64,000 nt of DNA from Chryseobacterium lactis. GTDB taxonomy: Bacteria > Bacteroidota > Bacteroidia > Flavobacteriales > Weeksellaceae. The stretch lies in assembly GCF_003815875.1 (NCBI RefSeq), contig NZ_CP033924.1, positions 4,650,001 through 4,714,000 on the forward strand, read 5' to 3'. The translations under genes were made by a program, and so were the position numbers. The notes under the pieces were generated by a model. It did no database searches and was not told the origin of the DNA. It saw only the letters and a list, made by a program, of their open reading frames with translations. Positions 23,303 through 61,964 of this stretch are shown in pieces. Each line of letters opens with the position of its first letter. The stretch's first letter is position 1.

Positions 23303-23358
23303 AACCACCCTGTCAAAAATTCTTTGAATTTTTGACACCCCTCCAAAGGAGGGGAATT
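23303..23358 (+). repeat. Two-hairpin repeat family C, solo copy 1
   Basis: AACCACCCTGTC, then a perfect 11-bp stem (GTCAAAAATTC-TTT-GAATTTTTGAC), then ACCCCTCC-AAA-GGAGGGG-AATT. Same architecture as the pair flanking the DUF559 gene at 45135-45678. It lies directly after the icd terminator. Confidence 0.8.
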
Positions 23359-45134: not shown

Positions 45135-45194
45135 AATTCCCCTCCCTTGGAGGGGTGGATTCCAAAGTTCAACTTTGGAAGACGGGGTGGTTTA
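45135..45194 (-). repeat. Two-hairpin repeat family C, left copy flanking the DUF559 gene
   Basis: On the plus strand: AATTCCCCTCC-CTT-GGAGGGG, TGGA, then the stem TTCCAAAGTT-CA-AACTTTGGAA, then GACGGGGTGGTTTAA. It is the inverted partner of 45618-45678 and ends eight bases before the ATG of the gene. Confidence 0.85.
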
Positions 45195-45201
45195 AACACA
45201 T

Positions 45202-45642
45202 ATGATAATGAAAGAAATACTAACTTACATCAATGAAGTACCCATTGGAAGGGACTTCGTTCAAAATCCACCCTACAATCCCCTCCTAAAAATATTTTTA
45301 AAGGAAAAGCGTAAAGCCAAAATTTTGGGTGAAGTTATTTTCTGGAAAAAAGTTAGGGCTAAAAGCTTTTATGCTATTGATTTTGACAGACAAAGAATAA
45401 TCGGGAATTATATCGTTGATTTTTATGTAAAAACACTGGGACTTGTTATTGAAATTGACGGAGCAAGCCATGATGAAAACCAAATTTCTGATGGAGCAAG
45501 ACAAGAATATCTTGAATCTTTAGGGCTATTGGTTTTTAGAATAAATGATTTTGATGTAAGAAATAATCTGGATTTAGTAATGAAAGAATTGGAAGAATTT
45601 ATTATTGTTCATTATGGAACCACCCCGTCTTCAAAAATTTAA
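45202..45642 (+). CDS. DUF559 endonuclease-fold protein boxed in inverted repeats
   Basis: 146 residues from ATG 45202 (ATG 45208 is also possible). DUF559 is a Vsr/PD-(D/E)XK-like nuclease fold. The start PPYNPLLKIFLKEKRK is usual for the family, as are FDRQRIIGNYIVDFYV and the acidic LVIEIDGASHDE, giving candidate catalytic residues Asp73, Glu84, Asp86 and His90 with a downstream Arg100. No partner methylase or restriction gene is nearby. The last codons (TTPSSKI and stop) lie inside the right repeat, and the left repeat ends eight bases before the start, so gene and repeats form one compact unit. Confidence 0.8.
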   Translation: MIMKEILTYINEVPIGRDFVQNPPYNPLLKIFLKEKRKAKILGEVIFWKKVRAKSFYAIDFDRQRIIGNYIVDFYVKTLGLVIEIDGASHDENQISDGARQEYLESLGLLVFRINDFDVRNNLDLVMKELEEFIIVHYGTTPSSKI

Positions 45643-45678
45643 TAATTTTTGAATCCACCCCTCCAGAGGAGGGGAATT
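45618..45678 (+). repeat. Two-hairpin repeat family C, right copy flanking the DUF559 gene
   Basis: GAACCACCCCGTC, then the stem TTCAAAAATT-TAAT-AATTTTTGAA, then TCCACCCCTCC-AGA-GGAGGGGAATT. The first 25 bases are coding for the end of the DUF559 protein, including its TAA at 45640-45642. Inverted with respect to 45135-45194; stem sequences differ but stay paired. Confidence 0.85.
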
Positions 45679-61563: not shown

Positions 61564-61917
61564 ATGCACAAACCTCCTATCCATAAAAGTTTTCTGAATG
61601 CTTTCCGGGGAGTTTTTGTGATGATCAAAACAGAAAGAAATTTTCAGATTGAGCTTCTGGCTTTTCTTGTCAATGTAATTCTGATTTTTTATTTAAAACT
61701 TTCTTCCGTTGATGCGGCTCTTATTCTTTTCGTTTCATTTGCTGTGTTAAGTGCTGAAATTTTCAACACAGCGATTGAAAAGATATGTGATATTATCCAA
61801 CCGGATTTTGATAAAAGAATCGGCTTCATTAAGGATATTGCTGCCGGAGCGGTTGTACTAATGGCAATTGCCTCGGTTATTGTCGGAATTCTTGTGTATT
61901 GGAAGTATATTTTTTAA
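61564..61917 (+). CDS. dgkA: Diacylglycerol kinase (or undecaprenol kinase)
   Basis: 117 residues, the DgkA size, with three membrane helices. N-terminal amphipathic start HKSFLNAFRGVFVMIKTERN, then RNFQIELLAFLVNVILIFYL and LSAEIFNTAIEKICDIIQP, the conserved core with the Glu that binds Mg-ATP. Some Bacteroidota members phosphorylate undecaprenol instead. Its stop TAA is the first three bases of the repeat copy at 61915. Confidence 0.88.
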   Translation: MHKPPIHKSFLNAFRGVFVMIKTERNFQIELLAFLVNVILIFYLKLSSVDAALILFVSFAVLSAEIFNTAIEKICDIIQPDFDKRIGFIKDIAAGAVVLMAIASVIVGILVYWKYIF

Positions 61918-61964
61918 CCACCCCGTCAAATATGAGATTTGACACCCCTCCGGAGGAGGGGAAT
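61915..61964 (+). repeat. Two-hairpin repeat family C, solo copy 2
   Basis: TAACCACCCCGTC, the stem GTCAAAT-ATGAG-ATTTGAC, then ACCCCTCC-GGA-GGAGGGGAAT. The TAA is the stop codon of dgkA. Shares both outer blocks with 23303 and the DUF559 flanks; only the stem sequence differs. Confidence 0.8.

Follow-up and report, generated by a model that had tools for sequence, protein, structure and literature searches.

The unit described here, from the genome of Chryseobacterium lactis, is an element of about 0.54 kb in which a single DUF559 gene stands between two inverted two-hairpin ends. Comparison with related loci supports that the gene and its repeats form one unit. We consider it rather probable that this unit is a compact mobile element with hairpin ends, driven by its own nuclease and accompanied by gene-less derivatives resembling REP sequences. 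Positions refer to the window, i.e. the whole stretch of 64,000 nucleotides that was analysed.

Structure of the unit

The architecture proposed by an earlier sequence-only reading of this DNA was confirmed by direct inspection (Table 1): the gene begins 8 bases past the left repeat, with its ATG at 45202, and it ends within the right repeat, where the stop codon (45640-45642) falls in the inner loop. Both repeats have a common outer block, and their inner stems differ from each other and are paired on each side, as that reading had described. In most relatives of the gene, the start is the second ATG, at 45208. The C-terminal TTPSSKI of the protein is coded by the right repeat. It was also seen that positions 45630-45642 of this repeat supply the SSKI codons and the stop, and that a TTPSSKI C-terminus is common among the close relatives. 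A scan of the 64-kb window against Rfam gave nothing at gathering scores.

Table 1. Positions of the boxed nuclease unit and of the gene-less copies in the window
Feature	Positions	Strand	Description	Basis
Left end	45135..45193	-	AATT-CCCCTCC-CTT-GGAGGGG hairpin, inner stem TTCCAAAGTT/AACTTTGGAA, then GACGGGGTGGT	Direct reading, genome pattern match, same structure left of relatives
DUF559 nuclease gene	45202..45642	+	146 aa; PF04480, E 2.6e-23	
Right end	45618..45678	+	ACCACCCCGTC, inner stem TTCAAAAATT/AATTTTTGAA, then CACCCCTCC-AGA-GGAGGGG-AATT	Direct reading, genome pattern match, same structure right of relatives
Solo copy	23303..23358	+	Right-end type, gene-less	Direct reading, genome pattern match
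Solo copy	61915..61964	+	Right-end type, gene-less	Direct reading, genome pattern match

The assignment of the gene to DUF559 also held, with a PF04480 score of 82.4 bits against a curated cut-off of 20.6; the Pfam name of this family is still 'protein of unknown function'. Twelve residues were kept in 21 diverse members, namely R37, E44, W48, R63, Q64, I71, D73, F74, E84, D86, G87 and H90. We take E44, D73, E84, D86 and H90 to be the residues of the EDxHD motif, and a catalytic domain of this type is predicted in the protein. Profile matches were obtained with 3hrl (E 4.3e-26) and, weakly, with 3r3p, 'Mobile intron protein' (E 0.001), which is presumably the entry of I-Bth0305I. Purifying selection on the gene is strong (median dN/dS of the close genes 0.115 over 592 pairs), and a broken copy was the only copy in 11 of the 81 gene-bearing genomes.

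Association of the gene with the repeats

A locus was counted as boxed when a hairpin lay at most 200 bp away with at most 3 mismatches and in the correct inverted orientation. Protein matches were found in 92 of the 148 genomes of the genus, some of which held distant DUF559 proteins or fragments only. The 89 close loci consisted of L033-L062 and L067-L121 (85 loci, not including every fragment) together with the named loci L063-L066. L065 comes from a Flavobacteriaceae MAG, thus the close loci are not all from the genus, and L064, a duplicate of L061, was left out to give 88 distinct loci. The close matches in G121:C53, G121:C45 (a second piece), G089 and G064 were not counted as loci. Hairpins stood on both sides of the gene in 71 of the 88 loci, on one side in 11 and on neither in 6. 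Among 93 control ORFs of the same stretches, none was boxed on both sides and 10 had a hairpin on one side, so the flanking of DUF559 genes beyond chance, predicted from the single unit, was borne out. For three exceptions to the box rule (L066, L074 and L087), a diverged or farther repeat is visible by eye, and L109 and L117 have no box.

In a motif-free test, the inverted-match score of the flanks exceeded the 99% level of the null in 77 of 93 loci; the 16 loci below it comprised the 5 distant DUF559 controls without exception (L122-L126, out of the more distant matches) and 11 of the close loci. The null (n=738) included stretches with runs of N (maximum 250), therefore percentiles were used, and L054, with its short stretch, was left unscored.

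Compensatory change in the stems, claimed at first from four copies, was seen again in the larger set, where pairing was kept. The 122 distinct copies gave 95 distinct inner sequences, and 67% of them reached a stem score of 6 compared with 1.6% of shuffles. In the TT..ATC class (47 sequences), standard pairs were found in 355 of 376 cells (94.4%), against 40-70% with slid partners, and 6 of the 8 pairs showed two-sided changes while none had one-sided ones, the first pair being fixed by the choice of class and the sequences being related, so that the changes are not independent events. The exception is the left-end class (TTCTCC...GGTCGAA), e.g. TTCTCCCTTTGGTCGAATC, in which the inner stem is not fully formed.

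Hairpins in the genome and in the genus

The pattern CACCCCTCCNNNGGAGGGG with up to 2 mismatches gave 43 matches in the whole 5.6-Mb genome, which represent 25 sites; at 18 of these the pattern matches on both strands. The reversed control pattern gave 0 matches in the whole genome at the same tolerance. There are thus 25 hairpin sites against a single boxed DUF559 gene. The sole second PF04480 match of the genome (L032, G000:C1:2278795-2278920) reads Vsr-like, and no such hairpin was found beside it in the surrounding stretch. The solo copies mostly share AACCACCCCGTCAAAAATTCTTTGAATTTT(C/T)GCCACCCCTCCnnnGGAGGGGAAT, which is the right-end type, with a stem unlike either of the copies boxing the gene. 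Solo right ends measure about 56 bp, and in the gene-less left/right pairs the outer hairpins lie 115-140 bp apart.

For the two solo copies in the window, the coordinates and the paired stems of other sequence stood as first described, but the exact block did not hold for 23303-23358, which has ACCACCCTGTC with 1 mismatch to the block. At the site of the other copy (61915-61964), 13 of the 20 relatives that were compared also have the hairpin. The remaining 7 show different sequence there, and no clean empty site was found among the 20. This solo copy may be the mark of a deletion. As a separate observation, 4 of these 7 relatives (L313, L315, L316 and L317) carry at this site an insert of about 0.6 kb with an ORF that has a lipoprotein-like start.

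Across the genus, hairpins were counted per genome at up to 1 mismatch. The median was 18.5 in genomes with a full-length gene (n=70), 18 in those with broken copies only (n=11) and 4 in those with no close gene (n=67); one-sided Mann-Whitney p values for hairpin number were 4e-10 and 6e-4, in a statistic that ignores the kinship of the genomes. Genomes G102, G139, G104, G087, G101, G045, G048 and G098 were counted as full-length, their open frames having been confirmed. Hairpins were absent from 1 of the 70 genomes with a full-length gene and from 19 of the 67 without a close gene. At least 10 hairpins were present in 20 of these 67, which means that copies persist without the gene or that another mover exists. 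The EIDG..H segment is altered in L109 and L117, and the genomes that carry them (G119 and G028) have 1 and 0 hairpins, respectively.

The aceE site

Most of the close loci share one location: 70 of the 89 are next to the start of aceE or next to its neighbours, 5 stand on the 3' side of aceE and 14 are elsewhere. The gene is found there in either orientation: read along DUF559 itself, aceE is on the left in 30 cases and on the right in 39, and 1 case is cut by the contig end. The distance between DUF559 genes tracked the distance between aceE genes (Spearman 0.43 against a permutation maximum of 0.18, 65 loci). Given the clustering at one site and the purifying selection, DUF559 is probably in good part inherited vertically at the aceE site.

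The corresponding stretch upstream of aceE was inspected in all 67 genomes that lack a close gene. A single symmetric hairpin was present in 12 (with a perfect stem in 6) and a left-end/right-end pair in 5; a further 7 had an element end or some other remnant, and the other 43 showed nothing that could be recognised. The count of 12 is 14 minus G053 and G125, of which one is an element end and one is chance-like. Where a full or broken gene was located elsewhere in the genome (12 genomes), the aceE site held a symmetric hairpin in one case (G139) and a pair in another (G101). Several of the single hairpins at this site appear decayed. Judged from its sequence, a single hairpin there could be either a scar or a target. 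The idea that an active nuclease clears all symmetric palindromes lost support from G139, where a perfect symmetric hairpin at aceE coexists with a full-length gene at another locus, and from L097 and L111. In another three loci (L143, L146 and L174), short tandem repeats with AAACCTT, AAACCCT and GCCATAA units were noted in the intergenic region upstream of aceE.

Placement in host genes

In addition to intergenic locations, the unit was found in frame within genes. At L248 (G633), DUF559 and its hairpins lie in frame within pheT. A 90-residue piece of this pheT had one match in each of the 9 genomes searched (9/9), and in 7 relatives (L292-L298) pheT is uninterrupted, with a short variable linker at the place, L292 being 92% identical over the piece; the pheT of L299 is an 812-codon frame. 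At L233 (G195), DUF559 is in frame within the chorismate synthase gene aroC, where the PDB alignment breaks at residue 264 of 5z9a and restarts at 269. In L251 and L253 it lies within hsdR, shortly 5' of GGVVWHTQGSGKSL, and the right junction of L230, from a third family, is identical to that of the hsdR cases, its contig ending at the left. A further copy lies within a type ISP protein (L227). The pheT, aroC and hsdR placements lend support to insertion as their probable origin. At least 12 places with open frames of at least 400 codons were present among the phylum matches listed. Some cases are at the edges of genes, namely L274 (in frame into HemF), L279 (after HemD) and L271 (before QueG), with L275, L276, L277 and L278 resembling them; these could be neighbours that share a frame. 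Occupied and unoccupied places, which had been named as a mark of mobility, do exist, both in pheT with and without the element and at the aceE site with and without the gene.

Other clades of the phylum

The pairing of gene and hairpin is not peculiar to Chryseobacterium. Relatives were found in 55 of 395 genomes in the search of the order (E up to 1e-20) and in 160 of 395 in that of the phylum (E up to 1e-18). Of 29 loci taken from other members of the order, 23 had inverted flanks above the 99% level of the null. For the phylum, 37 loci were chosen by hand with in-frame cases deliberately included, and 18 of these exceeded the 99% level and 24 the 95% level of a null free of stretches with N runs, while 19 missed the 99% level. 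The boxing hairpin varies with the clade of the nuclease in other genera and families: it is CACCCC..CACCCCTCCnnnGGAGGGG with GC-rich inner stems in L222, L223 and L227, CACCCCTCTTTCAGAGGGG in L228, CCCCCTTTGAAGGGGG in L232 and L234, ACACCCCTAAAGTCCCCTCAAGGGGACA in L235 (whose left copy is degenerate) and L236, and CACCCCTAACCCCTCC..GGAGGGG in L233. In a search of 12 genomes, the hairpin of the L236 type was found only in its two cognate genomes, G451 and G220, and in 0 of the 10 others. G451 had 4 matches, all at the gene, and G220 had 5, with 3 at the gene (7 of 9 overall). The hairpin therefore follows the gene, yet it is hardly dispersed in these genomes. As a side observation, genomes of family f38 hold up to 7 such DUF559 genes each among the matches listed.

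Discussion

The sequence-only reading had taken the boxed gene for a small mobile or homing-type unit. The unit structure, the covariation of the stems, the occupied and unoccupied places and the match to a mobile-intron profile speak for this part of the claim; the nuclease as the mover of the solo copies is what we infer. In the mechanism that we propose, the nuclease would recognise either a palindromic end of the element or a palindromic site that is empty and cut or nick there, and during repair of the break the element, or else its ends, would be copied into the place in a homing-like manner, the binding, the cutting and the copying route all being conjectural. The hairpins would serve as ends, as REP hairpins do for RAYT transposases. 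Loss of the element could leave a single hairpin, although the direction of gain or loss is itself presumed. Each element end has AATT outside and CACCCC inside, whereas a single-hairpin place is bordered by AATT left and right; an enzyme that reads both halves could therefore tell an empty site from an occupied one. Given G139, L097 and L111, such discrimination cannot be absolute. G139 also counts against spread driven by the nuclease, as does the weak dispersal in G451 and G220, where the near confinement of the hairpin to the gene indicates that wide dispersal is not general.

The spread of the hairpins might instead depend on another enzyme. If they were REP-type sequences moved by a RAYT/Y1 (HUH) transposase encoded elsewhere, DUF559 would be carried along as a passenger between two of them. 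Four Y1_Tnp (PF01797) matches are present in the genome, a subclass of Bacteroidota TnpA-REP with atypical flanking structures has been described (PMC6006769), and a separate Y1 mover would fit the genomes that hold at least 10 hairpins and no close gene. However, the stretches around all four Y1_Tnp matches contain no hairpin at up to 4 mismatches and no ACCACCCCGTC block at up to 1 mismatch, on which ground RAYT was rejected as the mover. Nor would a passenger remain boxed at 71 of 88 loci or switch its hairpin with its own clade, and all 4 hairpins of G451 are at the DUF559 gene. We regard this explanation as unlikely.

It could also be argued that nothing moves the gene, DUF559 being a resident domesticated gene by aceE and the hairpins being terminators or regulatory structures that spread passively. 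The concentration of 70 of the 89 close copies in a single place, the low dN/dS and the tracking of aceE distance agree with such residence, but it leaves aside the 14 of 89 copies elsewhere, the 5 at the 3' side of aceE and the two orientations (30 and 39), and the insertions in pheT, aroC and hsdR and the 25 hairpin sites of the genome further oppose it, so that we hold it to be quite improbable. The fold family of DUF559 includes Vsr-type repair nucleases, and an enzyme that cuts palindromes in order to limit the repeats or to attack foreign DNA, rather than to move anything, would fit the association between DUF559 and the hairpins. Such a control or defence enzyme is very improbable in our view, since gene-bearing genomes have more hairpins, not fewer, and the position of the gene inside the repeat would be left unexplained. 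A hairpin-ended element moved by its own nuclease is therefore the reading that we prefer.

Among known systems, REP/RAYT systems and REPINs are alike in their dispersed short hairpins with a conserved foot block and inverted pairs, and in REP/RAYT the enzyme gene is likewise located between cognate hairpins, with repeat and enzyme co-varying. Cognate flanking hairpins that also occur elsewhere were found here (71/88 boxed; 25 sites), weakly in G451 and G220. However, the RAYT enzyme is a Y1 HUH transposase, whereas the present one is a DUF559 nuclease (EDxHD/PD-(D/E)XK-like, PF04480), and the whole unit also occurs in frame within genes. The DUF559 unit is thus not a RAYT system, because the enzyme differs. 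In IS200/IS605 elements, very small size and hairpins at the ends are shared features; here, DUF559 is the only gene between the ends, with no TnpA HUH transposase, and the ends are inverted repeats of each other.

The EDxHD homing genes, such as that of I-Bth0305I, have by profile a related nuclease, a preferred site and occupied and unoccupied alleles of it, the last of which were seen here in pheT and at the aceE site. They differ in that the DUF559 unit is framed by its own hairpins and gives gene-less hairpin derivatives, and no intron or intein context was noticed at the DUF559 loci in an unsystematic look. According to a review, a target of nearly 60 bp is occupied by a dimer of the EDxHD enzyme I-Bth0305I (PMC3943268), and one DUF559 gene had previously been placed in the EDxHD homing family (PMC9403480). 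In the literature searched, mainly open-access, no pairing of DUF559 with hairpin repeats was found.

If the nuclease moves the hairpins, RAYT is not the only class of enzyme that produces REP-like repeats, the CCCC-T-AGGGG hairpins by these genes across Bacteroidota are explained, and a homing-type gene is shown to persist with neither intron nor intein, placed in frame in loops of essential proteins that tolerate it. The unit is small enough for direct tests in vitro and in E. coli. A broader claim, to which we give somewhat less than an even chance, is that autonomous elements of this kind occur throughout the phylum, each made of an EDxHD-type nuclease of about 140 aa and two hairpins without transposase, integrase, intron or intein. 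They would be a source of REP-like repeats and would insert in frame into essential genes, the nuclease thereby becoming a domain within PheT or chorismate synthase. The Rickettsia palindromic elements, described (PMC10969869) as palindromic repeats lying in frame in unrelated host genes, share the in-frame placement. They differ from the DUF559 unit, which carries a nuclease gene and belongs to another phylum with another sequence, while the Rickettsia elements are enzyme-less. Translation of the repeats themselves was noted at two loci. At L230 (G238:C203), at least 3 head-to-tail copies of the left hairpin are present and give in-frame GWHRPQGDDGVVHSPPEE repeats on translation. At L272 (G784:C4, 2125-5550, minus strand), which was read in part, a 1142-codon frame consists mostly of translated hairpin repeats (NSPLLEGTQGVFSN units) around DUF559, and DUF559 was the sole Pfam match on this frame.
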